In this document: positions 14,171 through 57,778 of the stretch, one piece after another
How the letters are laid out: every line of letters begins with the position of its first letter
Position numbering within the stretch: the stretch's first letter is position 1
Assembly: GCF_022376445.1 (NCBI RefSeq)
Contig: NW_025955120.1
Span: 1-64,000 of the forward strand
Length of the DNA: 64,000 bases
DNA from: Fomitopsis serialis
Lineage: Eukaryota > Basidiomycota > Agaricomycetes > Polyporales > Fomitopsidaceae
Direction of reading: 5' to 3'
Program-made: the position numbers and the translations under genes
Notes under the pieces: generated by a model
What the model saw: the letters and a program-made list of their open reading frames with translations, nothing else
What the model was told of the DNA's origin: nothing
The model's database searches: none

Positions 14171-16413
14171 TCACATTACAACGGAAATAAGTGGTAGTAG
14201 GTGAAGAGGAAGAAGACGGTATTGCCCATGCCATGGAGCGGTATCAGACGTATTATACGTCCTGTTACTCCTGTATAGCTTCACGGGCCCACACATCAAC
14301 ATCGTGTTCCCGGTAATACTGAAGGAAGACATACTGAGTGCAGATAATAACGCGCTAAGATCCGGATTTGAGTTGTTCAGCGCAGCGTTCCGAAGTATGA
14401 CTCTATGAGGATGCTCGATTTGACGTTGAGGATTATTCTGGATAATCATCTCGAGCAGCCTATCCTTAGTCTTCTCTGCACTTGGATCCGTCCAGCGCTC
14501 GAATTCTGTCCACTCTAATCTATGGTAATTTACGAAGAGTAGTCACAATGAGCAATGCTAGATCACAACGCGATGATGGTGAATGACGGCACTTACTCCC
14601 TTATTACGGAGGCGGGCTCGCGAAGCTGTTCAAGCTGCTGCCTTATGGCCTGAGTGCGAGCACTTTCAGCTTTCTTGAGCACAGCCGATGCGCCCGAGGC
14701 TGTGCGCTGCGGTCCATGTATACTTGTACCGCTTTTCTGTGTTGTGCTAACAGCCGCCACGTTCCTGCTCATGTCCGCAGGTCCACCACTCCTGCGAGGG
14801 ATCCTAGAGGGTCCTGGGGTCCTCGAGTCCACAACACGCTGAGGTGATGCGGTCGCATGAGGCCCACTAGCAGGTTTGGAAGTTTGGACAGCTGTCTGAG
14901 CATCACGAAGAGCACCGGCGAGCCGTACTGGTTGCCGATGAACAGGCGGTGCAGCTGTGGTAGAACGAGCCGCCCTGGTGGCCGTCGATCGCTGGCCTTG
15001 AACAACCCGCGCGCTGGTCACTCTTGGAGTATTCGAGGGCACGGCGGACATTCCGGCCTGGTCAGTATGTGCGGATGCGCCTGAATCCCCTCCTATAACT
15101 CCAGAGTTCTGCGATGAACGAGGAGCACCGGCTCGTCCACGCGTAAAGGGGGCACCGGGGGCCTCAGCAGCAGTAACCATTGTACCACTAGTAGGGACCT
15201 TTTTTGGCACCTCAGGACGAAGAATCCTTTGGCGATTGAGACTTGCCACGGCGTACGCCGTCAACATCGCGCTTCATAACATTTGGTACACGGTAGCTTA
15301 CCTTGTACCCTGCTCTGAACGACGAGTTTGCATGGTAGTATTGGAACTTCGCTGAGACGGTCCAGCCCGTCCTGAAGGTTCAACTCCTGGGCGACTGCAA
15401 AAGTTGGCTTCAAATTACCGCAGAGGAACATATACCCAACGTCATGTAAGCTGACCTTGCAGATGCTAAGACTGTGCGCTTGCCCTTGGTCACGTCCGTG
15501 GTCCCGTACCGCACCCTGCAAGAGATGTCAAAGACGTCAATAAGAGTTGGTTACAAAACAACGTACGTCTTCTTCAGTGCAGCTGCAGGGCGGAGGGTCC
15601 TATTGTGCAACGAGCACAAGGGCCTGTAAGTCCTCAAGTTGTACCCTTGAGAGGTGGTCCAACTTACCTCGGACGCCCCCGAGCTGGCTGGTGAGCGGTG
15701 CCAGTGGCTTCAAGGGGAGGCGAATAAACACTGTCATATTCTAGGTCCGTGTCGGACTGCTGCTCTGAGGCCGGCGGTTGACGGTAGGTAGGGTCAGTAT
15801 TGTTGGATAGGAATTCGATCTGATCATCTTCGCAGTTTGCGATGGAGAAGAATGGACCAACAGCCGCCACTGCGGCGATTGCTTCTACGTGCCGACCCTC
15901 ATCGGCGAGGGCAGAAAATAGCAACGTAAGCTGCTTGAAAGCTCCAGACTTCGCGGCGGTTTGGTATTGATGCATGTCCCTTTCGAAAGCTGCCTCATAG
16001 CTGTGCTCCGGAATGTCGGGAGATAGGTATGGAAGTGTCTTGATCTCGCAAACAGCCAGGATCGCGTGGTCGTCAACTATGCAATCACCCTTGTAGTGTG
16101 CAAGCATCGCCTCGTAATTGCGTACCTCGGAGGACGTGACCCGGCGTTTGACTCCCCGGTGGCCCTCCATGTAAAGTAACACGAAGTCCGGCAGTTTCCT
16201 GACCTTTTTCAGAGCACCGTTACTCTTGAGTTGCAGCTTTGTCAGAGGGTATTGAGGAGCGGCAAAGACACGGTTGGGATTGAATCTTCCGTCACGGTCG
16301 AAAGCTTTCGCCCAGTACGGGTACCAGAAACCTTCTAGTCCATCCTCGTTATACTCCTTGTGATCGCCAGCAAATGACTGTAGAACATCGAGGGAGAGCA
16401 TATAGTCGTCCAT
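14171..16413 (-). CDS. PD-(D/E)XK nuclease-like protein, module 1
   Basis: Read leftwards from the ATG at 16413. Exon 1 (to about 15664) encodes a domain shared with the genes at 47.9 and 55.9 kb: AFDRDGRFNPNRVFAAPQYP, KLPDFVLLYMEG, ILAVCEIKTLP, a Gln-containing helix (QTAAKSGAFKQLTLLF) and VAAVGPFFS. The pattern PD, about 50 residues, then ExK, then Gln fits the PD-(D/E)XK fold; this is a motif-level assignment. Several small exons and a Ser/Ala/Pro/Arg-rich basic exon (14593-15267) follow. The last exon begins LEWTEFERWTDPSAEKTKDR (from 14518), homologous to HEWSMWYHWEHPNGIKQRS of module 3. Small-exon boundaries and the stop at 14171 are uncertain. It lies head to head with the intact GWA gene at 16905. 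Confidence 0.6.
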
Positions 16414-16904
16414 GGTTAGATCAGCGAGCTAGGATCACCGGAGTGGATGCCAGTTGCGACCGCGTTTGAACGCTGCCACCACACTTATATATGCCGAGGT
16501 GGGCACACTCGTAGGCTGCGAATAGTCCGCTTCTGAGGCCAGGTAAACTTCCGAAGCACATGTTAGGCAACCTTTGTTCTCCGAAATGTACCTGCATTTG
16601 GAAGGTCGCGCCTTGCGGCCATGGTTGTTATCCCAAATAGGCAGTGTGGCTTGCGTGGACCTGCGTGGACCGTGGCACATCAGGGCACATCATGATCAGC
16701 ATGGATCAAATCCGATCAATCGCCGTGGACCGTGTCCACCTCTGTCCAAATTAGGCAGTTTTGTACTTCTGTCCACGGCATGTGACCGCGTTGCTTCGTT
16801 TGAACCGCTTGATTGTGGCTTGACTTCTTAGCTGTACGCCACTTTCCGCCCAGACCCACACCGTGTTCTCTCTCGCCTTCACTGTATCCACCCCTCACTT
16901 TATG
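16414..16904. promoter_or_regulatory. Divergent intergenic region, module 1
   Basis: 491 bp between the two divergent starts. It contains GTGGACC-type repeats (about 16655-16680: GCGTGGACCTGCGTGGACCG) and GGCATGTGACCGCG at 16777-16790, an E-box-centred sequence also found upstream of other GWA genes. Confidence 0.5.
16777..16790 (+). promoter_or_regulatory. E-box-like CATGTGACCGCG element
   Basis: GGCATGTGACCGCG lies 115-128 bp before the GWA start at 16905. The same core occurs near 45.76, 46.33, 52.78 and 54.18 kb upstream of other members, though in opposite orientation relative to the gene. CANNTG cores are typical bHLH sites; the factor is unknown. Confidence 0.4.
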
Positions 16905-17981
16905 ATGTCGCGGAAACCTTGGGCTCTCGGGTGGCTTGTCGACAAAGAAGCCGTCACCCAACTTGCCAGGCGTCTTAACCTTGTACGCGGGCCAAAAGCC
17001 GACAAAGAAATAGAAGTCGAGTACGCGGGAGTCGACTACATCGTGGGTCGCCTTTGGTGGCCATACATGATGCGGTGCCGGGTTGGTGATAACGACTGGG
17101 ACACCGAGCTCGTCTTCGCCATCTACGTCGATAACAAGCGCAGGTCGTACCCCCCAAGGTGGATTCCGCGCTCGCAGATGTTGTCGAAGAAGTACGCCGA
17201 CAAGTTGAACGAGCTGATGCCACTCAAGGGCAAGGCTCAGTGGTATCAGTGTGTCGACGGCTCGCATACACCGTGGCGCTATCCGGACGACGATGACGAC
17301 GACGAGGATGAAGTCTGGGTCGACGTCTTGCACACGTTGCCACAGCCCGAACCGGAGGAAGAAGCTGGTGTGGATGTTGTCGTGCAAGAATACGAAGCCG
17401 AGTACGGGGAGTACGATGAGGAGGAAGTCGAGTATGGTGTTGGTGCCGAAGAAGACCTTGTGGAGTTCTATGAAGACGATCAGGAACTCGTGGAGTACGC
17501 CGAGGAAGGAGAAGAGTACCTCGAGGAAGGAGAGGAGTACCTCGAGGAAGGAGGAGAGTACCTCGAGGAAGGAGGAGAGTACCTCGAGGAAGGAGAAGAG
17601 TACCTTGAGGAAGGAGAGCAGTGCCCCGAGGGCGATGCGGAGGACCTGGAAGAGGGTGCGACGGGCTCTCAGGACGGTACAGACTACGACAAGGGGTCTA
17701 TGGTGGGCAGCGAGGGTGAGGTTGCCGTGTACGATGAACAAGGCGTGGTGGACATCGAAGACGACGACTCGGATACTGTTCGCGGTGACGAGGATGCCGA
17801 CATATGCACTGAGAACGATGGTGGTCAGGCGGTTGCATCCGTCGGGATTTACGACGACTGCAACGCTACGTCGAGCGCAGGCGATGTCCATCGTGGAGGG
17901 GTCGATGACGTGCCCTCATCTCGCGGTGTGGAATGCCGCTCTGAAACGAGCCCCACGGGCGCGGCAGGAGATGCACCGTGA
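16905..17981 (+). CDS. GWA family protein, long-tail type, intact
   Basis: Single exon of 358 residues starting MSRKPWALGWLVDKEAV; a second ATG immediately precedes it. Core (residues 1-120): YIVGRLWWPYMM, TELVFAIYVDNKRRSYPPRW, LNELMPLKGKAQWYQCVDGS. From about residue 125 the protein is overwhelmingly Asp/Glu (DDDDDDEDE, then EYEAEYGEYDEEEVEYG) and includes about six EEYLEEG-like heptads. No signal peptide or membrane segment, so probably nuclear or cytosolic. Domain unknown to me. It is divergent from the nuclease-like gene at 14171-16413. The 12.5-kb gene is a recent duplicate. Confidence 0.75.
   Translation: MSRKPWALGWLVDKEAVTQLARRLNLVRGPKADKEIEVEYAGVDYIVGRLWWPYMMRCRVGDNDWDTELVFAIYVDNKRRSYPPRWIPRSQMLSKKYADKLNELMPLKGKAQWYQCVDGSHTPWRYPDDDDDDEDEVWVDVLHTLPQPEPEEEAGVDVVVQEYEAEYGEYDEEEVEYGVGAEEDLVEFYEDDQELVEYAEEGEEYLEEGEEYLEEGGEYLEEGGEYLEEGEEYLEEGEQCPEGDAEDLEEGATGSQDGTDYDKGSMVGSEGEVAVYDEQGVVDIEDDDSDTVRGDEDADICTENDGGQAVASVGIYDDCNATSSAGDVHRGGVDDVPSSRGVECRSETSPTGAAGDAP
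17502..17620 (+). repeat. 21-bp coding minisatellite (EEYLEEG repeat)
   Basis: Tandem 21-bp units of the type GAGTACCTCGAGGAAGGAGA encode EEYLEEG or GEYLEEG. About six copies here, against about two in the duplicate at 13130-13180, so copy number has changed since duplication. Confidence 0.8.
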
Positions 17982-18637: not shown

Positions 18638-19559
18638 ATGTCTCTATTGCCCTGGGCTCTTGGATGGGTCGTGGACAAGGAATATCTCCTGCAATTCGCT
18701 CGGCAACTCCAGCTCGTACAAGGACCAGAAGCCGACAACACGTTAAGACTCACGTATGCCGCAGGCTATCGACTACATCGCATTGAAGCTGCGGTGGCCG
18801 TACCTCATGGACTGCGTGGTTGGTCACGGCTGCCATACAGAGCTTATCTTCGCGGTCTATGTCGACTACAAGCTCAGGCCATATCCCCCCAGATGTATTG
18901 CTCGCTCGCTGCTGCTGCCCCGGGAGTACGCAGTCGCGCTGAAGGAGTTTATGCCGCTGAAAGGCAAACCTCAATGGTATTGCTGCGTTGGAGGGTCGCA
19001 TACACCGTGGCGTCTCAATATCGAGAGCCTCGGAGACGATGTCTGGATCGACGCCTTGCGCATGCTCCCACAGCCCGATCCCGTCGACGAAGGCGATGAT
19101 ACTGAAGACGACGCCGCTCGCGGGGAGTACGACGATGAAGGTATCGAACCTGATGCTGACACCGATGATGAACTCGCCGGAGACGACCAAGAGGTGTTTG
19201 AACGCGAGGACTGTGACGAAGATGGCGCGTATCATACGGAGGAAGGTATATGTTACACCGAGGAAGGCGAGGAGCCCGTCGGGAACGGCGTGGAGTACAG
19301 CCAGGATGCTGTGGAGTATGCAGAAGCTGGGTACATGGATGGTACGGATGAGGACGTCTCGAGCGACGAAGGGTACGAGAGCGATGTGTACGTTGGAGAC
19401 CATGCGGCGCGCTCCGAAGACGAAGACGACTCGGTCACTGTTTGTGGCGATGAGGAGGTCGAAGCATGCGAGCCTGAGCACTGCGACGTTGCGCCTGCAA
19501 GTGCCGACGACGTTGGCGACGTGACCTCGGGGCACAGTTTGTCGCGTGGATGCGAATAA
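18638..19559 (+). pseudogene. GWA family copy (long-tail type), frameshifted
   Basis: The start MSLLPWALGWVVDKEYLLQFARQLQLVQGPEAD (split here as LPWALGWVVDKE and LQLVQGPEAD) is in one frame up to about 18765. The rest of the core (DYIALKLRWPYLMDC, TELIFAVYVDYKLRPYPPR, LKEFMPLKGKPQWYCCVGGS) and the acidic tail to 19559 are in another. Compared with the 16.9-kb copy, the junction TATGCCGCAGGCTATCGAC has four extra bases, a net +1 shift. The tail is long, open and acidic. An unseen intron could in principle bridge the frames, but the relatives have none here. Confidence 0.65.
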
Positions 19560-20015: not shown

Positions 20016-21885
20016 CTAAAGTGGAGGCGGAAACCCGTCGAAGTCTATCGGAATACAGTGCGGTTCGTAATCGCCATCAGGAACCCACGGCGCGCCTTGC
20101 GGCACCCAACAGAGCTCCTACGGAAATCCTGTCAACCTCATAGATCCGTATTCAACAGGAAGCACTCACGTCGACGCCACAAGCGGGCTCGCATTTGATC
20201 CATACTGGCCAATCAAGCCAGTCTATAAGCGAGTCGAATTCACCCCTCCACTTCTCCAGGTATCCTCGGACGACGTCGGCGGACTTCTCTTCCGCGTCGA
20301 AGGCATCTACCCAAGCCTCCGTGTAGACTCGACAGATCTCGTGCAGCACCTCCTCCACGGCGTGATGCAGAACGCGCTCCTGCTTCGTGAACTCTGCCCG
20401 CGGCAAGTGCCCCGTGAAGCGCGCCGCGCAGTCGCGCGCGATCCTCGCGAACCATGCTGGCTCCCCGATGTCTTCGCGGTGCATGTACGGGATGAGCGAG
20501 ACGACGAGCTGCCTGCGGACCCTCGCCAGCCGTTCGGTGACGTTCGTCACCGGCTGGTGCAGGAGGTGCCGCACGTACGGGAGTCGGCCTGAAAAGCGGT
20601 CCTGGATGACCCGTGCAAGGGCCTCCCAGTCCACCCCGCTCGTCGCCGACGAGTTGCGTGTCATGACTTCGGCGATGTCCGCGCGCACGTGGGCGATGTC
20701 CGCCTGCGAGATGTTGCCCGGGCGGTACTCGTCCCGCGCCATTGTGCGACGCGCCTCGACGAGCGACGTCAGGGCTGGGTCGTAGAAGGAGAACATACTC
20801 GCGGGATCAACGCGGACGCGTACTTCTCCTGGGAACTGGTTGTGCCATGTCCCCGCGTTAAAGCCTTCGATGTCTAGGTCGGGCAGCGCCCCTTTCCATC
20901 CCTTGGGGTACGAACGTGGATCATCGACCAACTGATCTCTGAGCAGACCGTTCTCCTTGTCGAGCTGATTGTGGGTAAGCCCGTGGATCGTCGCTTCTGG
21001 AGTGCACTGGCCACGAGGGAGCCGATCTTGCCATGGCGGTGCAGAAAGATCGTCTTCTGATCGTGACGCGTCTGAGGGAGTCGGGAAAGGCGAAGAAGGA
21101 TCCAAATCAGCTAACGAGTTCACACTCGACATGGTAGAGACAAGCTCCAGGCCCTGCGAGAAATCGCAGTACATGACCTCGCTGGGACATGTAGCAAGGA
21201 AAGTCAGCGCGAGGCATCTAGAGTAGCTGAAGCACGTACAAGTCGAATTCCATCCGCAGGAAACCGTCAATTCCGTATTGCCTTGCCCAAGCACATCCGT
21301 CGACTATACGGTCTATCTCGTGCCTCCACGGGCTTCCTGGGTCCCCTGTCCGGCCCGGCTCACCCCAGATCAAGATGTCTTGGGTGTCGCCCACACCGCC
21401 GTACTTGTTGCCGCTGCATCCGTCAAAGTAGACGAGCTGCAGATCGCGAGTTGCGATGTACGTCAGCAAGGTGCCGTTCGTGCCAAAGGCAAACATCATG
21501 GAGTGCTCGAGGTCGAACGCGATCCAGTCCATCGACGGGCAGCCGCGTAAAAATCTCCCGTGGTGAAGCACAGTGCCCTTCGGGATGATCGCACGCGCAA
21601 TGGAGTGGCCTGAGTCCGAGATTAGTGACTGGACGTAACAAGGAGTTGGAGCAGGAATCGTACCAATAGGGTACTTGGAGTTCGGCATCATTTGCAGAAG
21701 AGAGCCAGAGACTGGAATACGAGGTTGCCCGTCGCGTCTTCGCTTAGACGTTCGTTCCATGGGCGGGAGTGCCATGCTCGGGGTGACGTATCGACCGAAG
21801 GTGTGAGCGGCACTTGCGAAGCACTAATCAAGGCCCACAGTCTCACTGAAAGTAAGATGGGGGCAAGTCTTCTCCACCAGCACAT
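20016..21885 (-). pseudogene. Secreted fungal protein of unknown function, copy C, one-base frameshift
   Basis: Three exons as in copy B: 21885-21240, 21181-20170, 20117-20016, the last reading ELCWVPQGAPWVPDGDY. Blocks are conserved (SEDATGNLVFQSLA, GHSIARAIIPKGTVLHHGR, DLQLVYFDGCSGNK, MEFDFEVMYCDFSQGLELVS, AGTWHNQFPGEVRVRV, WLDWPVWIKCEPACG). Exon 1 is 646 nt where the reading frame needs 647. At about 21710, after CAGTCTCTGG, one base is missing compared with A and B, and the frame reaches TGA after LFCK. Apart from that base the gene is open, so a recent mutation or a sequence error are both possible. The variable middle is acidic and Ser/Pro-rich. Confidence 0.75.
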
Positions 21886-30009: not shown

Positions 30010-31624
30010 TCAATCTGTGCCACCTCTAGGACTCTCGATATCTTGACCTTCTCGCTGTGCCTCTCCTCCGGTATTTGGCTGCGTGGCCTGCGCACGATGG
30101 ATTCTTTCCATGTCCTCACGCCAGACTATGAAATCTTGGTAATTATGCATGGTGCTATGAAGGGCACTGAGCTTTCCCCCGCAGTCTGAGTCAATAGTAT
30201 CACATACGTTAGTATACCTCGTCCTTCTGAGTGTGGCATCTTCTGCCTGGCGAGTTCATCCCACCGCTCTCGGAGTGCTGAACCCGGCTCCAGTGTGCCA
30301 GAGGTCCAGGTATCATCATGAGTGTCGAAGCCTAGACAGATGCCGCGTGACACGACAATACTGGAGAAGTGCTCCTCCTGCAGTATGCTGTCCAATCGTC
30401 CCAACACACTATCTTGCTCCATCGTCGTTAGCATTTCGCCCAGGTCATCGGCCATGTGGTCTGTCCGAATGACCAACATGACAGACATGGCCTGGAAGTG
30501 TTTTGAGGTGATGCGAGACAATATGTACGGGATCCAGGGCCACGCTGCATAGGGGTGATATAGGTGGATCTCCAACCTCCACAGGCGGTCGTGGTGTGAA
30601 AGGTTGTAGTGTCGCTCTATAGGCACGAATCAATCAGCCAATTGCTTCAGAGATAATGACATAAAACTTTCCGACAGTAGCATCAATTGTCCCATCAGGC
30701 ATGGGAGTAGGATCGACCCAGAACCTGAGCCCAACCACATCCGCAGATGTGGAACTTGCATCCAGCAGAGTCTGACTGCGGCTAGCTGCCGACTCGGGGG
30801 GACCCAACTCGCCAACTACCGCAAGAATGAGAACACGCACGCGAGAAGCCCGGCTGATCTGCACGAGAAAGTCTTCGAGTTCTGGTGCAACCCATCGCAC
30901 TCCGAGATACTCCATGTTGGCACAGTTCAGCGGAAGAGAGCCGGGGAAGACCTGCTGTTTCTGCAAACAGTCGACATTGATGCATGATAACTCTCTCAGC
31001 CGCGGGAGTGCCGAAACGAGGCGGGACAGCAGGGAAACGCTGGACAAGGTAACGTCGATGATGTTCAGAGTGTTAATGGAGCTGAACCTGGATAGGTAGC
31101 CGACGTCCACCATTCGAACCGCGCCCGCGATCCATTTAGCATCTGTGATGGTGATCCTCGACAACCTGGGAGCCTTGCCAGCGAGCATGACGGCAAATGT
31201 CCCCATGTGCCCAATCGGCTGACGGTACCCAGGTAAGGCACCGGATATGATGACCTGTTGGACGGCCTCACGGAGGCGCGGTCTTTCACGAAGCGTCTTG
31301 AAGAGTGAGAGGACATCTTCCCGACGTCGTAGATGGATACGTTGACGAAGATGGTACCACGTCAGGTAGTACCAGTCTTGGCATACGAGCGCGCAGGACG
31401 CGAGAGTAGATAGATGTGGGTCGCTCGTCAGGGACACGTATTTGTGATCCACTCCGGTTGCTACGTGGTCGATAATTCGTCCACAGACCTCAACAGGAAG
31501 TTGCGGAATCGATGGACATCGAGGAATGCCCTCGGACGTTGCAGCTGTACTATATTCCTCATGTTAAGACCATGTAACTCGCGTATGTGGACAACGAAAC
31601 TTACATCCAGTCGTCTTCCTCCAT
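30010..31624 (-). CDS. F-box/LRR-type protein, intact
   Basis: Four exons: 31624-31605, 31549-30661, 30614-30218, 30185-30010, giving 493 residues with consistent phases. The start is MEEDDWI, and the F-box core follows directly (IPQLPVEVCGRIIDHV, then ASCALVCQDWYYLTWYHLRQ). The rest is a run of leucine-rich segments (SRITITDAKWIAG, INTLNIIDVTLSSVSLLSR, LPRLRELSCINVDCL). Such proteins link substrates to SCF ubiquitin ligases through Skp1; the substrate is unknown, and agaricomycetes carry large lineage-specific sets. Intron 2 uses the second AG of TAGAG. The truncated paralog at 1977-3411 has the same introns. No lesion seen. Confidence 0.8.
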
Positions 31625-33348: not shown

Positions 33349-33404
33349 TTTACGTAATTTTCCATGTCTTGCTGCATACCCTCACGTCGTCTAACTTCGT
33401 CGCA

Positions 33405-34178
33405 ATGACCTGGGTGCTTGGCTGGGTTGCTCAACAAACCGTTCTGTAGGAAGCTTTCCAAAGAGTTCAATCTTGCCACTGAGTCGGATCCCAATGACGT
33501 CGACCACGAGTGTGCAGCCGCCGAATTCATCGCACAGAAGACGGGATGGCCCTATCTCAAGGAGTGCTGGGTTGGCGAGTCCACCGAGCTCGTCTTCGGT
33601 GTCTACATAGACTATAGAAACAGAGCCTATCCTCCCAAGCGGATCGAGCGGTCGCGCTCGCCACCTATCGAGCTCGCGGATAGGCTGGACGACTGGATGC
33701 CACTCATGTGCCAGTGCCACGTGAAGTGGTTCCGCTACGTGGACGCGTCCTACTCGCCACGGGAAGGGGAGAAATACCTGAGGTGGACCTCCGGGAGGAT
33801 GACGACTTGGGCGACACATCCAGGTTTGACCCATACACTCCCGGCAGCGCCGACGGGGATGAAGAGGACGATGCGTACAGCGATGACGGTGTGGAATACG
33901 GAGACGATGAAGGTTACGACGATGAGTCTGTCGGATGGGATGGGGGGGATGTCCAATACGTGGAGGTAGGTGTTCAGTGCGACGGAAGTCTCGAATGCGA
34001 GAAGTGTGTTGATGGCTCTCGCGATGCGTTCTATACCATCAATTGGTGCTCTACTACCCTATGCCCACACACCCGAAGATCCTCCGAGTCGTATAATGTA
34101 CATACTGTATCATACCTACGGTGTCGTACTATTCTCAGATGTGTTGTTGTGTTCCGCAACCATGCGCGAATAAGATAG
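33405..34178 (+). pseudogene. GWA family copy next to the inverted-repeat element, frameshifted
   Basis: Starts MTWVLGW, then needs a one-base shift at about 33425 to continue LLNKPFCRKLSKEFNL, ECAAAEFIAQKTGWPYLKEC, TELVFGVYIDYRNRAYPPKR, DDWMPLMCQCHVKWFRYVDA. A second shift near 33775 is needed to reach the acidic tail (DGDEEDDAYSDDGVEYGDDE). It is closest to the pseudogene at 4.2 kb. Two independent shifts make a working product unlikely. Confidence 0.65.
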
Positions 34179-45164: not shown

Positions 45165-45584
45165 TCATCCAGAACAGCGGCCAATTCGTCTTTCGGGTTG
45201 AAATCCGTGGTCAACGTTCAACCATGCCTCTCCGTGGTAAGGTCTCCAAGATCCATCGTTATGTCGGTACCAACCCAGGTCCCTGAGAGGCATAGATTCC
45301 CTGAGACGACGTCTCTGTTTAGCGGGCATTACGTCGTCGGACAAGATGACGCCCGGGGGATGGGCTCTGTCTCGATAGTCGACATACAGAGCAAAAACGT
45401 AGTGGAGCTCGTCGTCGGCCCAGCAGGCGAAGACAAGAGGGAAGCCCGCGTTGCACGCGACCCACCACTGCGCTGCGTCGATGTAGGCATGCTCGTTTAC
45501 GACAGGTTCCTTGACAAGGTTGTGTTTCTGGGATATCTCGACTGCGTCCTCGAAGTAGAGGGGCCATCCGAACACCCAAGTCAT
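45165..45584 (-). CDS. GWA family protein, MTW type, without acidic tail
   Basis: 139 residues from 45584: MTWVFGWPLYFEDAVEISQK, VNEHAYIDAAQWWVACNAG, YVFALYVDYRDRAHPPG, RLRESMPLRDLGWYRHNDGS. The core is full length and open. Where relatives splice into the acidic exon (after LYG), the donor is missing and the frame runs into an unrelated 25-residue end (NVDHGFQPERRIGRCSG). It is either a tail-less variant or a decaying copy. It lies just past the xylulokinase 3' end, the first of the array on this side. Confidence 0.6.
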   Translation of the reverse strand: MTWVFGWPLYFEDAVEISQKHNLVKEPVVNEHAYIDAAQWWVACNAGFPLVFACWADDELHYVFALYVDYRDRAHPPGVILSDDVMPAKQRRRLRESMPLRDLGWYRHNDGSWRPYHGEAWLNVDHGFQPERRIGRCSG

Positions 45585-45867: not shown

Positions 45868-46179
45868 TCACGACATAAGATGAACGGATTCAAGTTTGAA
45901 TTGAGACAGACAAGTGGGCAAGGAAGAATGCGATGTCGATGGCGATGGGGGCTTGATACAGGAGAGGGTGCCGGATTCAAAATACAAATGATACAGCTCA
46001 GGGAGGCTGTCGACCCAACAGGAGAGTATAGGGATCACGCCGACTTGAGCTGCGACCCATTGCTGGGCTGCTTCGATGTACCGATATTCTGGCGCATTCG
46101 GGTCCTTGACGAGATGGTGCTGTTTCGCGATTTCGATCGCATCGTCGTCATAAAGGGGCCAGCCGAGCACCCAGGTCAT
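45868..46179 (-). pseudogene. GWA family copy with internal deletion
   Basis: Starts MTWVLGWPLYDDDAIEIAKQ and is almost identical to the 55.3-kb gene up to VDSLPEL. It then jumps straight into DNA resembling the 3' flank of its relatives (TGTATCATTTG, CCTGTATC, compare 51800-51890). About 350-400 bp, including the second half of the core and the acidic tail, is missing. The 103-residue frame ends in unrelated residues. Confidence 0.65.
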
Positions 46180-46712: not shown

Positions 46713-47451
46713 CTACGGCTCGGTAATGGTGCAACGGGCATCTGCGTGCAACATCAGCCAACAGCGTCATTTCCCATCAAGTGTGGCACACTCACCAAAA
46801 TCCGTTGGCAATGACTGAACCGCTTCAGAGGGGCTGAAGCCCTCTGGGAGTAGGTCCGACTTCGAGACCGCACCGTCGGTCACCGTTTCATTATCGCTCT
46901 CAGCCGTGTCTTCGTCAACGCTGGCGATGTTCATCGAGGCAACTTCGTTATCACCTCCTTCGCCGCTATCTTCATCGCCATCGGTGTCGCTACCCTCGTC
47001 ACTTTCTTCGTCACTGTCATCGACATCCTCGTAAACCGTCTCCTCTGCATTGACAACATCAGTCGCGTCGAAGAAACATAAGGGTAGGGTTAATAAGCTC
47101 ACCATAGAGTTCGCAAGATGGGTCGTCGTGCTGGTACCAACCAAGATCCCTCAGCGGCATCGCCCGCTTGAGACGGCGATACTGCTTTCTGGAGATCGTA
47201 TCCTCGTGGACGAGTTCTATCGGGGGATATCGATTGTTCCCGTAGTCGATATATGCAGCGTACACGACCTCTGGCATGTTGTCGACCCAGCAACAGAGGA
47301 CAGGGACGCCACCAATGTGGTCCGCGACCCACAGCCTGGCTGCTTGAACGCGTTGAGCATCGTTCGCGTTTGGGTTTTTGACGAGATTGTGCTCCTTTGC
47401 GATCTTGATGGCGTCATCGTCGTAGAGAGGCCAGCCGAAGACCCAAGTCAT
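46713..47451 (-). CDS. GWA family protein, MTW type, intact (module 2)
   Basis: Three exons (47451-47103, 47044-46796, 46741-46713), 208 residues, phases consistent. Core: MTWVFGWPLYDDDAIKIAKE, HNLVKNPNAN, VLCCWVDNMPEVVYAAYIDY, NRYPPIELV, RAMPLRDLGWYQHDDPS. The second exon is acidic (VYEDVDDSDEESDEGSDTDG, DEDSGEGGDNE) and then has a block shared by relatives (AESDNETVTDGAVSKSDLLP). A tiny third exon reads DARCTITEP; relatives read DACCTIAEPQP, so this one stops two codons early. No signal peptide. Head to head with the nuclease-like gene at 47936, 484 bp between starts. Confidence 0.75.
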
Positions 47452-47935
47452 GTTGAACGAAGAGGATGATGCGAGTTGATTCGAGAGTGAAAGAGCAACG
47501 ATGCCTATAAATGTCTCGGAGAAACGGGAACGATGGTGTGGCTTCGGCGCTTAATAACGGAATCTACCGTGGCTTGATGTTCATAATGCCATTGTCTGCC
47601 ATATCGGTCATAGCAACCGATCGGCGATCGTGTGGCACCGTGGTAGGCGACGCCCGTTATGGATGTGGCTGACCACAAGGATGTGGTTCTTGGAGCCACA
47701 GTGTGGTTAATCCTTAATCGGGTCGCATGGGCGACGCAACCTAGGCGACGACCACAATGGTCCCACCGTGACATGTCCAATGAAGGAAGTTGTCGTTGCC
47801 ACTGTGACCACACGATTCATCGGGTCATTGGCCACGCGCTAGGCCATGCATTGCAGTCGTATAAAAGGGCCAGCGATACCCATCGAACTTCGTATCATCT
47901 CCTCCGCATAGTACCTCCACCGCTACGTCCCCGCG
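47452..47935. promoter_or_regulatory. Divergent intergenic region, module 2
   Basis: Shared upstream DNA of the two module genes. It shares words with the module 3 region: TCTGCCATATCGG, CAACCGATCG, GTGGCACCGTGG and GCGACGACCACAATG. TATAAAAGG at 47861-47869 lies about 67 bp before the nuclease-like start. Confidence 0.6.
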
Positions 47936-49629
47936 ATGGCGTTCAGGCTGTTCATACGAAAGACTCTCGCCGTCATACAAGCTTTTGCTGGGAATCCTGG
48001 TAACTTCTTGGGCCGGACCCTTGAATGGCCGTGGTACGGGTTTTGGACGCAAGCGTTCTACGGCGTCGTGGATCCTCGAAAAGTCAATGTCGGGCCTCAA
48101 TCCGAGGTTGTCAAGCAGCAACATACGAATGACGGCGGTGTCGCGCTGAAGAAGAGGGTTCCTGACTTCGTTCTCCATTACGTCACGGGAGTCCCTCTGT
48201 ACCACGACATCCGCTCTCTACTGCAAGTGACGAACCTCGAGGAGCTGCTACAATTCTACCAGGGCAGTTACACCGTCACTAACTCTATTGTCCTCGCGAT
48301 TTGCGAAATCAAGGCTCTACCGGACCCGTACAAAATACCAGCGGGTGAACGCTTCCAGCACACGCTGGACAGACGGGTGTCGGGCAACCAGACTGAGGCG
48401 CAATCGGGCGCGCGGCATCAGGTTTCTCTACACCTCTCTGCCCACAGAGATCTTGACGAGGTTGTGGCCATTGCAATTTTTGGACCCTTCTTTTCGTGGA
48501 GAATCTTCGCTCGGGATGAAGCGAGTGACATATCTAGCAATGTTGACTCAACGTACAAGGATTCCGGGCCGGCCGATGATGACAGTTTTGACGAGCACGA
48601 TGCGACGTTAGTAAGCTTCCTTTGTTATCGAGCAGCGAGTGATGTCAGATGCTCTGGTCACAGCGCAGCATCTCTGTCCATGCGTCATGAGATCTCCAAT
48701 GCTTCCAGGTCAGCAGCAGGTCCAGTGTGAGTATTTTCCACGTCTCTCCTCTCAGGACGACACTGAGCACTGTACCAGAAACGAACGACCCAAGCGCAAT
48801 CGACGGCCAGTGTATGATTTTCTCTCGCTCTCATATTGCCGTCCTGCTCATAGGTCCTTAGGAAGAGATATGGACAGCATCGGGCACCGACACAGACACA
48901 GGAAATACCGAAGACTGAGGAAGGCAAGGAAGAGGAGGAGAATTCGTGAGTCATCTGACCGCTGGTACCCCTCATTTAATTGATAACAGAGTTCTATTAG
49001 TACCTATCAGAAACTGAAAGGGAAGGCCAAAGCTTTTGCCAGGACTGTGTCGAAGCCGAGGCCGAAGCCGGAGGCCAGAGGCCACGGCAAGGTCTCAGGT
49101 CAGAAGGACAAGGGGAAGGGTAAGGACACTGGCAAGAGCCAGGCAAAACGTCAGCCTGCACTACAGGCGCTCCTACTGGCGTTGCCACCGCTAATGCATT
49201 CGGAGGAGTGAGTTACATCCCTTTCGTATTGATGGTAGGGAGAATACTGAGCTACCACGCGAACGTAGTGAACGTGACGAAGTCGTAGCAACTGGTGGAC
49301 CAAATACCGACAATTCGGATGCCACGACGAGTGGTGCGGAACAGGAGGCTGCATCGACATCCGCGGACGCCTCTCGCGTCGCCGGACCATCCGGACGGCA
49401 GAACGTCGACTCTGATAATGAAGAGGAGGAAGATGCGCCCGTTCCTCCAGATGAGTACGTCACTATCCACACCATGAATTGGCCAGTCTTCTGATAGCCA
49501 CCTGTGTCTAGACACGAGTGGTCGCAGTTTTACCATTGGGATCATCCCGATGGCATCGAGGAACGATCCAGGATGCTGGATGCCATCCAGCGACAGAACC
49601 CTGACATCACGTTCCGCTTCCCGACCTAA
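47936..49629 (+). CDS. PD-(D/E)XK nuclease-like protein, module 2
   Basis: Exon 1 (47936-48606) encodes the shared domain: AVIQAFAGNPGNFLGRTLEW, AFYGVVDPRKVNVG, KKRVPDFVLHYVTGVPLYHD, IVLAICEIKALPDP, ARHQVSLHLSAHRDLDEVVA, IAIFGPFFSW. Small exons follow. One begins QKLKGKAKA and is basic (KDKGKGKDTGKSQAKRQ); another is acidic and Ser-rich. The last exon, ending at 49629, reads HEWSQFYHWDHPDGIEERS then RMLDAIQRQNPDITFRFPT. PD and CEIK are the candidate metal-binding residues. No signal peptide. Middle exon boundaries were not resolved fully, but first and last exons match module 3. Function inferred only from motif pattern. Confidence 0.65.
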
Positions 49630-49739: not shown

Positions 49740-51744
49740 GTACTTGTTCCGAGATGTAATGTAGATCGTCCCTGTATCCCGACCCAATATAGTGTTTGCG
49801 ATGTTTCATGTGTCGTGACTAGTAAAATGCATCGCTCGTTCCAGTCTAAGTACAATCTGAGGCCAATGGCCTCGAGAATAACCGGAGTTGAGACCGTACG
49901 TACAGCCGTGACACCACCTACCACAGAGCAACACTGCTTAGTTGCGCGGCGCGTTTTTGTTGCAAGGAGCAAGGACCAACAAGGTCACAGTGCATCTCAG
50001 AAGAGACGCTTGCTCAAGTTCTATCCGACGAGGAACGCCTACGTAAGACCACTACTACTAACACAAATCGTAAGATACACGACAGCAAGCGTCCACCCGG
50101 GGTCACTCCCAGGCTCACAGCACACGTACAGCTCAAGACATGCATGGCACAAGAAAGTACGAAAGTACGAAGGCACGACAGCGAACAGTGTCTCTCGTCA
50201 CAAGCAGAACAACAACCACACGGACTCCCCTTTTGTCATCGCCCTCGTCCCCGTCCAGCAAAAGTCCGCAGATGGTGGCACACTACACGCGTCCGCACTG
50301 AGTTCAAGGGCGCGCACGTCTAGGGGAGCGTCCATCCGCCAGCGCCCAGCACAGCTCGCGCTCGGCCGGGCGCGAACAGGGACCTACCGTCCCGAAGGCA
50401 GCCCGCCAGTCCTACGGAGGGTCCGCCCGCCCGCCTCCTCAACTCAAAGCCCAAAGCCCCGAGCCCCGCAGGCAGCTAGCTCGGCGGCTTGTCCACGCTC
50501 ACGCTCCTCCGCCCCACGCGAGCTCTCTCCTCCGACCTCTCCCGACCGGTCACCCCCGCCCCACTCCCGCCACTATGCATGCTATGCACGCTGTGCATAC
50601 TGTGCACGCTCACCGAGTCGTCCTCCCGCGCCCGCTTCTGCCCGGTGCCCGGCGACGACGCGAGGGACACGGACATAGACGTCGGTACGGCGAAGTTCGC
50701 CATCGACCGCGCGGCGCTGCTGATCCCGACGCTGTGCGGGATCCCCGCGCACTCGTGCTCGGGAAGAGCGAGGCGGCGCTGAGCTGGCTGGACTGCGCGC
50801 CGGACGAGGAGGACGTGCCGGAGAGGAAGTCGAACCAGTTGCTGTTGTCCGTGGCCGAGTGCACGCTCCCTGGGTCCCGGGAACGACCACAATCATGAGC
50901 GCGACGCCGAGCGGCAATTGAGCATCACGCACCGTTCTCTGGATGACTCTGCTGACCACCCCCATGCACCGGCCAGTCGAACGACGGCATCCCGCCCTGC
51001 CCTCCTCCACCCGCACCTCCCCCACCCCCATTCGCCTCGCCCAGCAGCTCCAGGGCCATCGCCGTCGCCGACGACACGCCTCCCTGTCTCTGCTGCTGCT
51101 GCTGCTGCTGCTGATACATCGGCGCTAGTGTTTGCTGGGGTGTATACGGCGACGCCGAGCCGTGCTGACTATGCTGGCTACCGAGGAAGCCGGCCGTGCG
51201 CAGCGACGGATGGTGGCCCGCGCCCATGTCCATGCCGTACCCGCCGGAGCCCTGGGAGCCCAGCTGCGAGACGAAGCCTGCGGGGGCGCTCTGCGAGCCG
51301 AGCCCGCTGCCCACGCCGTTCATGCCGAGATTGAGGCCGGAGCTGGCGTACTGGAGCGAGGGATGGCTCGCGCTCTGTGTGGGCGGGAGGCCGGGCGCGG
51401 AGTGGAGGGGCGTGAAGCCCGTCTGGACGGGGTAGCCGGAGCTCATGTCGACCTCGAGGCGGTAGGGGTAGTGCGGCATGCCGCTGGAGCCGCTCGGGCT
51501 GGCAGCGAGGGAGGAAAGGTTGAGCGACTGCGGGAGGGCGGGCATGGAGTTGCTGTGTGTAGAGAGGTGGGGGCTGTCGTCGAGCCGGGGGCGCTTGGAG
51601 GCGAGGGAGTGGGAGGTGTTACGCACGGGCGGGGACGCGGCGCTGAGGCGCTCGCCGGAGACGGGGATGGTCATGGAGGAGGTCGTACCCGTGGATGAAA
51701 GGCGGTAGTCGAGCTAGAGTACGGCGGTCAGCCTGTGGGAAGTC
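49740..51744. repeat. Segmental duplication, left copy
   Basis: Much of this stretch, nearly identical from about 50060 on, is repeated in the same orientation at 57890-60038 (for example 50060-50350 against 58380-58640). It covers DNA downstream of the nuclease-like gene and the 3' half of the MADS gene. The match stops at 51744, inside the MADS coding region. Confidence 0.8.
50476..51744 (-). pseudogene. 3' fragment of a MADS-box gene without the DNA-binding domain
   Basis: Near-identical to the C-terminal half of the complete gene at 58773-60770: [39 protein letters not shown], a polyglutamine run of eight, [15 protein letters not shown] and the last exon [20 protein letters not shown]. 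The copy starts at the duplication edge (51744), so the MADS box and linker are absent. One base is missing near 50745 relative to the full gene (SLFPSTSARG, then out of frame). No promoter is visible. A by-product of tandem duplication. Confidence 0.75.
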
Positions 51745-51916: not shown

Positions 51917-52651
51917 TCAAGGCTGTGGTTCGGCGATGGTGCAACACGTATCTGCACAATAGTAAGTGGTCAAGAGGCAGTCTCAATCATGCATGATCAT
52001 ACACTCACCAAAATCCGTCGGAAGGGTTTGCCTCAGAGGGGCCGGAGTCCTCCGAGCGCGAGTCCAACTTCGAGACTTCACCGTCGGTGACTGTCTCAGT
52101 GTCGCTTCCCAGCCGTGTCTTTGTCGTCGTCGACAATGTTCGTCGGCGCATCATCATCATCGTCTTCTCCATCGCCTGCATCTCCATCGATATCCGTCGC
52201 GCTGCCCTCGTCACTGTCGTCGCCCTCTTCATCACCCATCTCCTCTTCATCCAACATCAATTGCGTCGAAGAGATATCAGGGCACATGCAGCTTACTGTA
52301 TAGCTCGCAGGACGGGTCATTGTACTGATACCAGCCAAGATCCTTGAGTGGCATCACCTTCTTGAGGCGACGATAGTTCTTGTCGGACATCGTCATGTTC
52401 TCGCGGATGAGATCAGGCGGAGGATAGCGGTTGTCGCCATAGTCAACATATGCAGCGTAAACAATTTCCGGGAAGTCGTCAACCCAGCAGGAGAGCACAG
52501 GAACAATACCGATCTGGTCCGCGACCCACAGCCGGGTTGCTTGGATGCGCTGATCATCTCCCGCGTTCGGGTCCGACTTGACAAGATTGCGCCTCTTCGC
52601 GATTTTGAGCGCGTCGTCATTATAGAGAGGCCAGCCAAAGACCCAAGTCAT
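51917..52651 (-). pseudogene. GWA family copy with frameshifted tail
   Basis: Exon 1 (52651-52297) is intact: MTWVFGWPLYNDDALKIAKR, VLSCWVDDFPEIVYAAYVDY, DNRYPPPDLI, VMPLKDLGWYQYNDPS. In exon 2 (52244-52009) the acidic part is fine up to DDDKDTAG. An extra base (GGGAAGCGACACTGAG, where relatives have GAGAGCGA) then gives a stop. A second length change (-5) lies near 52030. Exon 3 (51951-51917) still reads CCTIAEPQP. A shortened protein of about 165 residues with an acidic tail could still be made. Confidence 0.65.
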
Positions 52652-52771
52652 GATTACGATACCAAAGCATCAAAGTCAAGCAGTGTTACTTATGGAAGTA
52701 GAAGACGACACAGTTGCAAGTCCGTTGAAGTTGGTAAGTTCCAAAACTGATCATGATGGGCAAGCCGTGAC

Positions 52772-52797
52772 TGTGGCTTCAGACACGTGATCGCGAC
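52772..52797 (-). promoter_or_regulatory. Conserved upstream element of a GWA gene
   Basis: TGTGGCTTC then AGACACGTGATCGCGAC on the plus strand, about 120-145 bp before the start at 52651. Here the centre is the palindrome CACGTG. Confidence 0.5.
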
Positions 52798-53211: not shown

Positions 53212-53881
53212 TCAAGACTGCGGCTCAGCAACGGTGCAATGCGCATCTGCGCAACATCGATTGGTTAAAAGGGATCACATCATATGTATGCGACGAACTC
53301 ACCGAACTCCGTCAGCAGTGATTGGGCTGTCTCAGAAGAGCTGGAGTCCTCTGAGAGCATGTCTGATTGCAAGACAACACCGTTAGTTACCGCTTCGTTG
53401 TCGCTCCGAGCAGTTCCTTCGCTGGCCGTGTCGATATCTTCATCACCATCTTCGCCATTATACTCATCACTGTCGTACTCTCCCATCCCAGATCAGTCAT
53501 GACAGGCATAAGAAGTCATAGACTGAAGTTACCGTATAGAACGCTAGATGGGTCGTTATGTTGGTACCAACCGAAGTCCTTGAGAGGCATTGCCCGCTTC
53601 AGACGGCGGTACTGCTTGTCAGTCATTTTATCCTCGAGGCTGAGTTCGGCTGGGGGATTAGGACTATCACCGTAGTCGACGTATGCAGCATAGACGAGCT
53701 GCGGCAGATCGTCGACCCAGCAAGAGAACACCGGAATCAGGCCAGCTCTGTCCACGATCCATTCCTGTGCGGCTTCGGCGTAGGCTACGTCGTCAGCATT
53801 CGGATCCTTGACGAGGTTGTGCGTTTTGGCGATGTCGATCGCGTCGTAGTAGTACAGAGGCCAACCCAGGACCCAAGTCAT
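53212..53881 (-). CDS. GWA family protein, MTW type, intact
   Basis: Three exons (53881-53533, 53479-53303, 53246-53212), 186 residues, in frame. Core: MTWVLGWPLYYYDAIDIAKT, HNLVKDPNADDVAYAEAAQE, FSCWVDDLPQLVYAAYVDYG, KRAMPLKDFGWYQHNDPS. The acidic exon (EYDSDEYNGEDGDEDIDTA) is shorter than in the neighbours. The last exon reads DAHCTVAEPQS. It has no adjacent nuclease-like partner: between it and module 3 lies only another GWA gene, so it is either an extra copy or the survivor of a broken module. Confidence 0.72.
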
Positions 53882-54166
53882 ATTGCCAGGCTGGATGTGA
53901 GGTTGGAAGGGCAGGATAGATTTAGTAGAAACAAGTACTCAGCTGAGTACGAAATACGTGAAGGCTTGAGTGTCTCGGAGAACAAGGCTCAGGCTTGTAT
54001 TGACTCGTGGCGACGAAGGTGCTGATTATTACCGCTGGTTTCCTTCGCAATACCGTAAATCAAACCAGGATGTGTGGGCTGCGGCCTTCTACGCTGTGTA
54101 ATAGAACGCCTGAACACGGTGAGCAGGTAGGATGGTAATGGACCGCATGCAGTGAATCTAATAAAC

Positions 54167-54192
54167 CGTGGCCTCAGGCATGTGACCGCGCT
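54167..54192 (-). promoter_or_regulatory. Conserved upstream element of a GWA gene
   Basis: CGTGGCCTC then AGGCATGTGACCGCG on the plus strand, about 290-310 bp before the start at 53881. Confidence 0.45.
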
Positions 54193-54571
54193 GTGGCGAC
54201 TCGGATCGCCCAGCGGCCCCAGCCAATTAATGAGAGTTACCAGGTTCGACACACTTGGAAGGCGCGTCGAAGATGGATACGTCGGACGCAGCACGAAGAG
54301 CAACACGAGCTCGTAAGTGCTACTATGCACACGTCTGCACGTAGGAGCCCATCATGATCGCTTGCAATTCTCAGCTTCACGTCGGCAAAACTACGATGAC
54401 GACACAAGTTGAATGTAATGGAATTGGCACAAATATACTATACAGATATTGCTGTACAGACTGAATACAACGCAGCGTCAACGGGAATGGAAGAGTAATA
54501 CAGGATAGTTGCTTGATGTGATACATGATGTTGATGGTGCGACGAGAGAAGGCAGAGTTATAGACCTTGTA

Positions 54572-55325
54572 TCAAGGCTGCGGCTCGGCAATGGTGCAAC
54601 ATGCATCTACGCAGTACCCAGCGGTTGGTATGGATGATCTCAGACTATGTGCGACACACTCACCGAAGTCCTTAGGCAGTGACTTCGCTGCCTCAAAGGT
54701 TCCGGAGTCTTCTGGGAGCACGTCCAACTTCGAGACCGCACCATCAGTTACCGTCTCATTGTCACTCTCGACACTGTCTTCTTCGCAATCTTCATCATCG
54801 CTGGTATCGTTCATCGACGCATCGCCGCCGCCGCCATCTTCATCGTCACCCTCGTCGCTGCCCTCGTCACTGTCCTCGTCATTGTCCTCATCACTGTCCT
54901 CGTCACTCTCGTGACGCGTCTTCTCTGCATAGATGATCAGCGAAGTCATAAAAGGTGCCAGCACTTAGTCACTCACCATACAGGACACCGGACGGATCGT
55001 CGTATTGGTACCAGCCAAAATCCCTCAGTGGCATAGCTCGCCCGAGGCGGCGATGTTGCTTGCGGCTTATGATTTCCTTGCTGACGAGTCTGGTCGGAGG
55101 ATAACGGTTGTCCCCGTAGGCGACATACGCAGCGTATACAAGCTCAGGGAAGCTGTCGACCCAACAGGAGAGTGTAGGTATTATGCCGACTTGATCTGCG
55201 ATCCATTCCCGGGCTGCTTCGATGTACCGATATTCTGGCGCATTCGGGTCCTTGACGAGATGGTGCTGTTTCGCGATTTCGATCGCATCGTCATCGTAGA
55301 GGGGCCAGCCGAGTACCCAGGTCAT
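54572..55325 (-). CDS. GWA family protein, MTW type, intact (module 3)
   Basis: Three exons (55325-54977, 54924-54664, 54606-54572), 214 residues, in frame. Core: MTWVLGWPLYDDDAIEIAKQ, HHLVKDPNAPEYRYIEAARE, LSCWVDSFPELVYAAYVAYG, RAMPLRDFGWYQYDDPS. The tail is the most regular of the family (SDEDSDEDNDEDSDEGSDEG, DDEDGGGGDAS), followed by the shared block VESDNETVTDGAVSKLDVLP and last exon DACCTIAEPQP. No export signal. Divergent from the nuclease-like gene at 55878 with 552 bp between starts. Confidence 0.77.
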
Positions 55326-55877
55326 GCTGAGATTGTGAGAGAGGGAAGATGCGAGGGAAGATGCGAGGTGATTCGAACTTGGCGGCAGATGAACAGTGCC
55401 CTTAAGAGCAAGAGCGGGACGCGGTTCCAGCGCTCTCACGGCACCCACGGGAACAGCCGTGGCCTGAAGCACTAACCTTAGATGGTCGCGGCAACCGATC
55501 GCTGGTGGCACCGTGGGCAAGTGGTGGCACGCCATGCCCGATACGGTCGTTTGATCAGTAGCGATTGTGGTCATTGTGTGGCAATCTGCCATATCGGGTG
55601 GCATGATCGCGACGACCACAACGTTGCCACTTGCCACCACTCGTTTTGGGTAAATCGGTCGATGATTGTCGCGACGACCACAATGTTGCCACCGTGCCAC
55701 CACTTTAGTATGCTCGTTTAGGTAGTTCGATCGATGGCATGGCATCTCCCATTGTTTGACCGGCTCTGCGTCTCGGCTATGTGCTGCAGCTATATAAAGG
55801 GGTCTTATTAGGTCCCTTGGGCCTCGCATCACCGACACCGTGCCGGTCTCTCTCACTGGCACGTCTCCAACTCTGCA
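55326..55877. promoter_or_regulatory. Divergent intergenic region, module 3, with internal repeats
   Basis: Contains GTGGC/GCCAC words in both orientations and a partial direct repeat at about 55605-55645 and 55662-55702: CGCGACGACCACAA, then [CT]GTTGCCAC, then GCCACCACT. TCTGCCATATCGG, GTGGCACCGTGG and CAACCGATCG are shared with module 2. TATATAAAGG at 55790-55799 lies about 80 bp before the nuclease-like start. Confidence 0.6.
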
Positions 55878-57778
55878 ATGGAGCTGTTCATACGAAGCAC
55901 TTTCGCTGTTATACAAGCTTTCGCTGGAAATCCTGGTAACTTCCTCGGCAGGACCCTAGAGTGGCCATGGTATGGCTTATGGGTCCAAGCGTTCTACGGT
56001 GTCGTGGATCCCCGGAAGGTCGTTGCTGGCCCCCAATTCGAACTGGCCAAGATGCAGAATACCAATGATGGCGGCGTTGTCTTCAAGAAGAAGGTCCCCG
56101 ACTTCGTTCTTCACTATGTCACTGGCGTCCCTCTATATCACGACATAGACTCGTTGTTACGGGTGACCAATCATGAAGAATTGCTACAGTTCTACGAGGG
56201 CAGGTGCGCCCTGACCAGCTCCATCGTCCTAGCAGTCTGCGAGGTCAAGGCGCTACCAGACCCGACGAAGATACCAGCTGGGGATCAATTTCAAGCGGTG
56301 CTAAAGAAAAGGCTGTTCAACATCCAGGGCGAGGCGCGTTCTGGTGCACGGAAACAGGTTTCGTTACACCTCTCTGCCCATAGAGACCTCGACGAAGTCG
56401 TAGCCATCGCCATATTTGGACCCTATTTCTCGTGGAGGATCCTCGCTTGGGATGCAGTCAGTGACATATCGAGTAACGACGATCCGACTTATCACGCACC
56501 TGAGTCGGACGGCGGAGACAGCTCCGGCGACCAAGCTCCGCGGTGAGTATCATTGCCGTCTGTCGCTGTCGCTTTCGAATAGTTTCTGAGTTCGAGATCT
56601 CTAGGGGTCCGTCGGTGCATCAAGACCAAGAGATTCCCGACTTCTTGGCTGCAGCGGATCGACCGTGAGCACTCTTCGCATTTCTTCCCCAGGAGCAAAC
56701 TGACCGCTACCAAATAGTGCTGGCCGACCTAAGCGAGGTCCGCATCCAGTGTACGATCGTTTCCTTCCTCTTCAGGGGTTGTTTGCTCACCGGATCTTAG
56801 CAAGGAATACGTACAATACAGCATCCTGAAGGCGGAAAGACTCAGCACTTCAGAAGACGACGACACCAAGAAGCACCCGTGAGTCGTCCTGCCTCTAGAC
56901 ATTCTTCAATTCGTTGACCCTGAGGTACTAGTAGGGCGCAGAAACTGAAAGGCAAAGCTAAGGCGCTGGGAACATTTGTCATGGAGCCAGAGGAAAAGGC
57001 CATACTCGACGGCGAGAGGGCAGACGACGAGAAGGCAGACGACGCGAAGGAAGGCGGCAAGAAGGCAGGCGGCAAGAAGGCAGGCGGAAAGAAGGCAGGC
57101 GGCAAGAAAGCAGACGACAAGAAGGCAGATGGAAAGAAGACAGACGGCAAGAAGACAGACGGCAAGAAGACAGACGGCAAGAAGACAGACGGCAAAAAGG
57201 AGGAGAACAAGGAGGAGAACAAGAATAAGGGGAAGGGGAAAGCAAGGCAGCGGGAGAAAGAGGAAGTGAAGGCCGCCGAGGACAAGAGGGAGAAGGCAGA
57301 GGCCCCCCCGGAACCAGAAGTGCAGCGCTTGGAGTTGCCACCGTTCGTAAACTGGGAAGAGTGAGTCGTTCTCGCGGTCTCTTATGCGCATTTTCTGAGC
57401 CAGAAGTGAATCCAGTCCGTACCAAGGGATCTTAGCCCCCGGTGGGTCGCATGCCGGGAACTCGCGTGCCCCAACGAGCCGTGTGGGGCCGGAGGCTGCC
57501 TCGACATCCGCGAGTGCCTCTCGCGCTGCTGGACCTTCCGACCGGCAGAACGTCCACTCTGACGGCGAAGACGAGGAAGACGCGCACCTTCCTGCTGACG
57601 AGTACGTCGCTATCTTTTCTGCTGAAGGGTCAGTCTCCTGATAGCAAGTCGTGTGCATAGACACGAGTGGTCGATGTGGTACCACTGGGAGCATCCCAAT
57701 GGCATCAAGCAACGATCTAGGATGCTGGATGCTATCCAGAGACAGAATCCTGACATCACGTTCCGCTTCCCGAACTGA
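55878..57778 (+). CDS. PD-(D/E)XK nuclease-like protein, module 3
   Basis: Six exons (55878-56542, 56605-56664, 56801-56878, 56935-57360, 57416-57601, 57661-57778) give 510 residues with all phases matching. Residues 1-205: AVIQAFAGNPGNFLGRTLEW, AFYGVVDPRKVVAG, KKKVPDFVLHYVTGVPLYHD, IVLAVCEVKALPDP, ARKQVSLHLSAHRDLDEVVA, IAIFGPYFSW. PD and the Glu and Lys of CEVK are the candidate active-site residues. Exon 4 begins AQKLKGKAKALGTF and becomes a Lys-rich repeat (KKAGGKKADDKKADGKKTDG). Exon 5 is Ser-rich then acidic. Exon 6 is the conserved end HEWSMWYHWEHPNGIKQRS then QRQNPDITFRFPN. No export signal. Paralog of the genes at 14.2 and 47.9 kb. Confidence 0.7.
57045..57195 (+). repeat. 15-bp coding repeat, Lys-rich (KKAGG/KKTDG)
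   Basis: Tandem units GGCAAGAAGGCAG or GGCAAGAAGACAGAC encode about ten KK-containing pentads. Modules 1 and 2 are basic at this position too but lack the repeat. Confidence 0.8.

Follow-up and report, generated by a model that had tools for sequence, protein, structure and literature searches.

The first 64,000 bases (hereafter the window) of contig C69, a contig of 91,305 bases in the 66-Mb, 806-contig assembly of Fomitopsis serialis, a wood-decay polypore also called Neoantrodia serialis, contain three modules in which a gene of a nuclease-like family (N) and a gene of a small acidic family (S) lie head to head. The first-pass annotation had described these three modules, and its coordinates and all three distances between starts are confirmed (Table 1). 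The genes looked open in that annotation; N2 and N3 do splice to open frames through hand-chosen GT-AG introns of 43-62 base pairs (bp), S1 is open, and N1 and S2 have public models. Exon 1 of N1 occupies 15667-16413 and the exon carrying its C-terminal W motif 14360-14518, and the tail of S1 has a net charge of -82. On C212, a contig of 420,011 bases allelic to C69, the gene N2b splices to 439 amino acids (aa), and the C212 copy of a further gene, N4, has a public model (P0008) in which the C-terminal motif is present, as it is in the N1 model.

Table 1. Positions of the N and S genes, their common upstream regions and unpaired S copies in the window
Feature	Position	Strand	Remarks
S relic, fragmentary	3915..4251	-	two frames
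Orphan S, S1 type	12538..12915	+	exon 1 with one in-frame stop; open counterpart on C212
N1, PD-(D/E)XK-like gene, divergent type	14171..16413	-	public model P0011, 616 aa; 3' end provisional, taken from the first-pass annotation
N1/S1 common upstream region, 491 bp	16414..16904	.	zero GACCACA sites
S1, acidic partner of N1, long tail	16905..17981	+	open frame of 358 aa, taken as a single exon
Orphan S, S1 type	18638..19013	+	frame-shifted
Orphan S	33400..33759	+	degraded
Orphan S exon 1	45234..45584	-	open; C69 only
Orphan S	45967..46179	-	truncated; by eye near S3 type
S2, acidic partner of N2	46713..47451	-	three exons; public model P0015, 208 aa
S2/N2 common upstream region, 484 bp	47452..47935	.	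GACCACA x3: 47671, 47750, 47806
N2, nuclease-like domain, lysine-rich stretch, C-terminal WSxFYHW motif	47936..49629	+	seven exons, 455 aa
Orphan S exon 1	52295..52651	-	open; both haplotypes
Orphan S53.9	53531..53881	-	exon 1 open; 93% identical to S2b (partner of N2b)
S3, acidic partner of N3	54572..55325	-	
S3/N3 common upstream region, 552 bp	55326..55877	.	GACCACA x3, either strand: 55566, 55614, 55676; 24-nt direct repeat
N3	55878..57778	+	seven exons, 525 aa; same domain protein on both haplotypes

N is predicted to be a PD-(D/E)XK nuclease, as had been proposed at first, and the motif set of this fold (E, PD, ExK and a QxxxY-like motif) is complete, the structural model of N being of low confidence. 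LExxWY and PDF were found in all 18 rows of N proteins, C-E-x-K in 16 of the 18 and the Q motif also in 16 (lacking in P0005 and the short P0013); P0005, whose model is without the catalytic segment, was omitted from the 16-row N alignment. In the other exception to C-E-x-K, the metagenomic protein P0001, K replaces E, so a possibly inactive N exists. HsdR (3h1t) stood in the first row of the comparison for N. Behind the nuclease-like domain, N has a lysine-rich stretch and, at the C terminus, a conserved W motif; a 106-aa segment of N2 has a net charge of +17. Neither of the two protein families defined here has a credible match in Pfam, NCBIfam or PADLOC, the last a prokaryotic library. Six full N models gave no kinase family at an expect value (E) of 5 or lower, and no transposase or reverse-transcriptase match was obtained with six N models. 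Homeodomain families were found neither in ten N and S proteins (E <= 5) nor in the Pfam scan of 116 window open reading frames (ORFs), taken from 148 retained out of 181 of at least 110 aa (E <= 0.001).

S consists of a small, confidently modelled domain followed by a very acidic tail, with an isoelectric point of 4.1-4.6 and a net charge of -17 to -33 in all 12 models measured. The "GWA" start by which the family was initially recognized does exist, but it marks the less common of two S types; the more common one starts MTWV(F/L)GWP. The S alignment retained 15 of the 20 rows first tried, the five left out being broken or carrying stops. Three further S-like relatives, on contigs C57, C91 and C667 (L023, L024 and L025), each have one in-frame stop in the domain within otherwise long open frames, and the 10 kilobases (kb) read around each contained no credible N; what reads like reverse-transcriptase sequence is found close to the C667 copy.

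The pairing of the two families is strict from the side of N and loose from that of S. N occurs at no fewer than seven places in the 66 Mb, at about 16, 48, 56 and 73 kb of C69 and about 65, 73 and 89 kb of C212, with the same result for N2 and N1 queries. The module is present three times in the window, as annotated, but two further N loci lie outside it (C69 about 73 kb, C212 about 65 kb). At each of the seven, an S gene starts on the other strand no more than 1 kb upstream. For an N start placed at random in the 4-79 kb interval of C69, the chance of having such an S is 0.10, which for five independent loci gives about 1e-5, a figure whose assumption of independence is generous because the N loci are paralogues. 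The S copy number of three proved far too low, since C69 has 16 S loci, 11 within the window, and C212 has 15; these counts take in broken and fragmentary copies but not a weak match at 6829-6969 of the window (E 0.004). Only 7 of these 31 loci are paired with N, leaving 24 unpaired. Exon 1 of S is open at 7/7 paired versus 12/24 unpaired loci (Fisher p 0.026, an optimistic value because many copies are allelic). Conversely, a translated search with 12 N queries (E <= 0.05) detected no N remnant elsewhere on C69 or in bases 1-110000 of C212; the two contigs carry 24 orphan S (exon 1 open in 12) versus zero orphan N. The first-pass annotation had also held that the association lasted through inversion and divergence, and indeed the adjacency spans pairs in which N1 is 31-38% and S1 27-33% identical to the corresponding members of the other four pairs. 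With N1/S1 set aside, likeness between the pairs is 60-77% for N and 61-71% for S. The N and S trees have the deep split in common, and the pair identities of the two families correlate (r 0.96), the true assignment being the best of 120.

Common upstream sequence provides circumstantial evidence that N and S may be co-regulated. The word GACCACA recurs in the common upstream region of every module except N1/S1 (four of five), and 7 of the 17 GACCACA sites of C69 fall in its four N-S intergenic regions, which make up 2.4% of the contig (binomial 7e-8, before correction for a word picked after looking). None of the 11 orphan S upstream regions tested, out of 24 orphans, has the word, a weak result because only about one site was expected. 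Common descent of the upstream regions can explain part of the sharing.

C69 and C212 are likely the two haplotypes of one dikaryon, that is, derived from the two nuclei of the fungus; they align collinearly, in blocks 97-99.5% identical, with one at 93.7%, and insertions and replaced segments lie between them. Copies on the two haplotypes are not independent of each other. Between the blocks that end at C69 45133 and resume at 50777, the haplotypes hold different segments, with two S copies, S2 and N2 on C69 and S2b, N2b and S67 on C212. An FGGY-type sugar kinase gene, an ordinary neighbour recognized by a Pfam match and positioned by eye at about 44.1-45.0 kb of the window (+), adjoins this variable segment. 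The segments around N2/S2 and N3/S3 were duplicated together with their flanks. A low-complexity reading frame at 50928-51713 and 59232-60056 (-) and at about 65-68 kb of C69 is likewise duplicated, with about 90% DNA identity, beside S genes, and marks segmental duplications that carried the cluster.

The haplotypes differ in their N genes to very unequal degrees. For N3 and N4, the domain proteins of the two haplotypes are identical (synonymous divergence, dS, 0.007 for N3 and 0.013 for N4), while N2 and N2b, at the variable segment, are 61% identical (dS about 1.5), and N1, present on C69, was not found on C212 by searches and alignment; two open S1-type genes lie there. On the C69 haplotype only, N4 is split in its last exons by a 2,324-bp insertion (C69 69478-71801; L009/L029) with short inverted ends, a TCAGAC-rich end and a 4- or 5-bp target duplication; N4 exons lie on both sides, and the exon of its S4 is open. 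The S tree, which omits the degraded 33.4- and 44.9-kb copies and fragments, places several orphans with paired members: S53.9 groups with S2b (support 98/96), S67 with S4 (100/99), S76.7/S92 with S3 (100/99), and S12.5/S24/S25.5, together with the metagenomic P0033, with S1 (100/99). Thus, C69, although it lacks N2b, holds an N2b-type S, while C212, although it lacks N1, holds S1-type genes: S24 shares 82% and S25.5 87% identity with S1. Of the three N types not shared by the haplotypes, two (N1 and N2b) therefore have a clade-matched S on the haplotype without that N. S52, S66 and S75 form a group to which no paired S belongs; hence for some S types no N is known here. Both families are under purifying selection.

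Beyond F. serialis, both families are narrow in range. The N profile, in a final search that scored the best 7,998 candidates by shared words, matched 14 proteins at E <= 0.1 (3 from F. serialis, 2 from Fomitopsis schrenkii, 2 from Rhodofomes roseus, 2 from Daedalea quercina and 5 metagenomic), and the S profile matched 20 (8 from F. serialis, 6 from R. roseus, 1 from F. schrenkii, 5 metagenomic and none from Daedalea). Named homologues were thus seen in Fomitopsis, Rhodofomes and Daedalea only, as far as these two profile searches extend. A single contig carries both N and S in F. schrenkii (382,712 bases), as does one in R. roseus (1,919,588 bases). The R. roseus locus tags of S (846366) and N (846371) differ by five, and six such tags of F. 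serialis (1210797 to 1210808) run in contig order, which suggests that the two genes are close together in R. roseus, though short of adjacency. The abundance of orphan S genes, the haplotype differences in N, the S genes matched in clade to absent N types and this narrow range were all missing from the first-pass annotation. As it supposed, the pair appears undescribed, full-text literature searches that covered few subscription papers having returned nothing on it.

Taken together, the sequence patterns lead us to favour, at roughly even odds (about 0.5), a toxin-antidote reading, in which N would be a nuclease poison inside the cell and the adjoining S the matching antidote that binds and blocks it. 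N would cut nucleic acid; the S domain would recognize N, and its acidic tail would mask the lysine-rich stretch or the DNA-binding face of N; the common upstream elements would cause both proteins to be made together. Loss of N would be harmless and loss of S harmful, so that S genes would outlive N as orphans, and an orphan S would cover N types met in the partner nucleus. The payoff would be either that spores or nuclei lacking the pair are killed or that mycelia recognize one another as non-self. This reading was chosen because many orphan S and no orphan N are what it predicts, and it draws on the pairing, the asymmetry, the type-matched orphans, the open S beside the split N4 and the charge pattern. 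Under the proposed roles, the toxin-antidote traits found are linkage at 7/7 loci and copies of the antidote alone, with none of the toxin alone. Several observations weigh against it: (i) the N2 type is uncovered on C212, where the nearest S is only 74% identical to S2; (ii) the co-divergence of N and S is weak once N1 is removed; (iii) N proteins overall are not basic; and (iv) no diversifying selection was found. If the reading is right, N/S would be a two-gene module with the signature of bacterial toxin-immunity pairs, in a fungus whose haplotypes differ exactly there. More tentatively, it might be the first system in mushroom-forming fungi to encode a nuclease and its antidote in two genes, with haplotypes that carry different poisons and libraries of orphan antidotes, and the locus might govern the survival of individual nuclei or spores once mating or fusion has occurred, as a spore killer or as a determinant of basidiomycete somatic incompatibility, the genes of which are unknown and the mechanisms completely so, according to one review (PMC8229728).

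The strict pairing and common upstream regions would also suit N and S as one working complex, with S as a recognition or activating subunit, acting on nucleic acid, for instance in defence against viruses or transposons. Purifying selection on both proteins agrees with this, and local duplication and haplotype differences suit a defence locus too; the complex is the most serious competitor, at perhaps half the weight of the toxin-antidote reading. It leaves unexplained, however, why S is kept without N at 24/31 loci, with exon 1 open at 12, and why orphan S types match N types absent from that haplotype; moreover, no known defence protein was matched in PADLOC, itself prokaryotic. An allorecognition or mating-related locus, at which N and S of different haplotypes interact in a non-self combination, seems rather unlikely. 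N2/S2 and N2b/S2b do face each other at one site in contigs otherwise mostly 97-99% alike, both families are narrow in range, and the review passage on incompatibility genes (PMC8229728) fits; against it, the N3 and N4 domains are identical across haplotypes, both haplotypes evidently coexist in the sequenced strain, and no homeodomain was matched in N, S or the window ORFs.

Slightly less probable still is that the pairing arose as a side effect of local duplication, in which a single ancestral pair of neighbours with no joint function was copied as a block. The duplication of N2/S2 and N3/S3 with their flanks and the likeness of all pairs other than that of N1 point this way, but adjacency was kept down to about 31-38% identity in N1/S1 and through inversion, and S was copied alone many times and N never. 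PD-(D/E)XK domains occur in mobile elements, yet a domesticated transposon nuclease with S as a regulator carried along is very improbable, given that N is not dispersed in many copies but confined to seven places on two allelic contigs, one locus and its allele, and that the N models lack transposase and reverse-transcriptase matches.

The toxin-antidote reading can be set beside known systems. In Spok of Podospora and Fusarium, the killing part is a predicted PD-(D/E)XK nuclease, and the passages available on SPOK3 report a nuclease match to HsdR of Vibrio vulnificus and a QxxxY motif (PMC6660238); SPOK1 is stated, in part of another source, to kill through DNA (PMC9972908). N resembles it in the HsdR row and the QxxxY-like motif, and content differs between haplotypes in both. 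However, Spok, described from ascomycetes, unites nuclease and resistance-conferring kinase in one protein, an arrangement not seen in the six N models of this basidiomycete, just as the first-pass annotation had distinguished the two; no kinase was matched in N, and its proposed antidote would be encoded by a gene of its own. A parallel in gene content is bacterial: the EsaD nuclease adjoins an immunity gene and strings of non-identical EsaG paralogues, according to an excerpt (PMC9484751), and polyimmunity loci are, in a further partial source, arrays of immunity genes (PMC3482391). By the proposed roles, N with its adjoining S and orphan S paralogues is arranged likewise, but EsaD/EsaG is bacterial, secreted and operonic, whereas N/S is eukaryotic, spliced and divergent, with no sequence relation detected. 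The wtf family of fission yeast has antidote-only genes derived from complete drivers, as part of one paper describes (PMC12941216), which is what orphan S would be; its poison and antidote come from one gene, unlike the two genes and the nuclease of N/S. These repeated divergent pairs at a haplotype-variable locus also recall another mushroom locus. The HD1/HD2 mating-type locus of mushrooms consists of divergent gene pairs repeated at a polymorphic locus; N/S does not fit a homeodomain mating-type locus, no homeodomain family having been matched in the ten N and S proteins searched.

Other families in the window were duplicated as well. Three tandem copies of an uncharacterised two-exon family lie at 4536-6047, 10567-12302 and 20152-21823 (all -), with DNA about 68% alike and the motifs HSIVRAxIPPGTxLYHGR, GSWHxxFPG and TFFDPAxTSLVEARR; this family has no obvious match among the nine Pfam families found in the window ORFs. 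An F-box-protein-like gene is present, by reading, as an inverted duplicate at 1944-3298 (+) and 30637-31563 (-), and one window ORF matches F-box-like.

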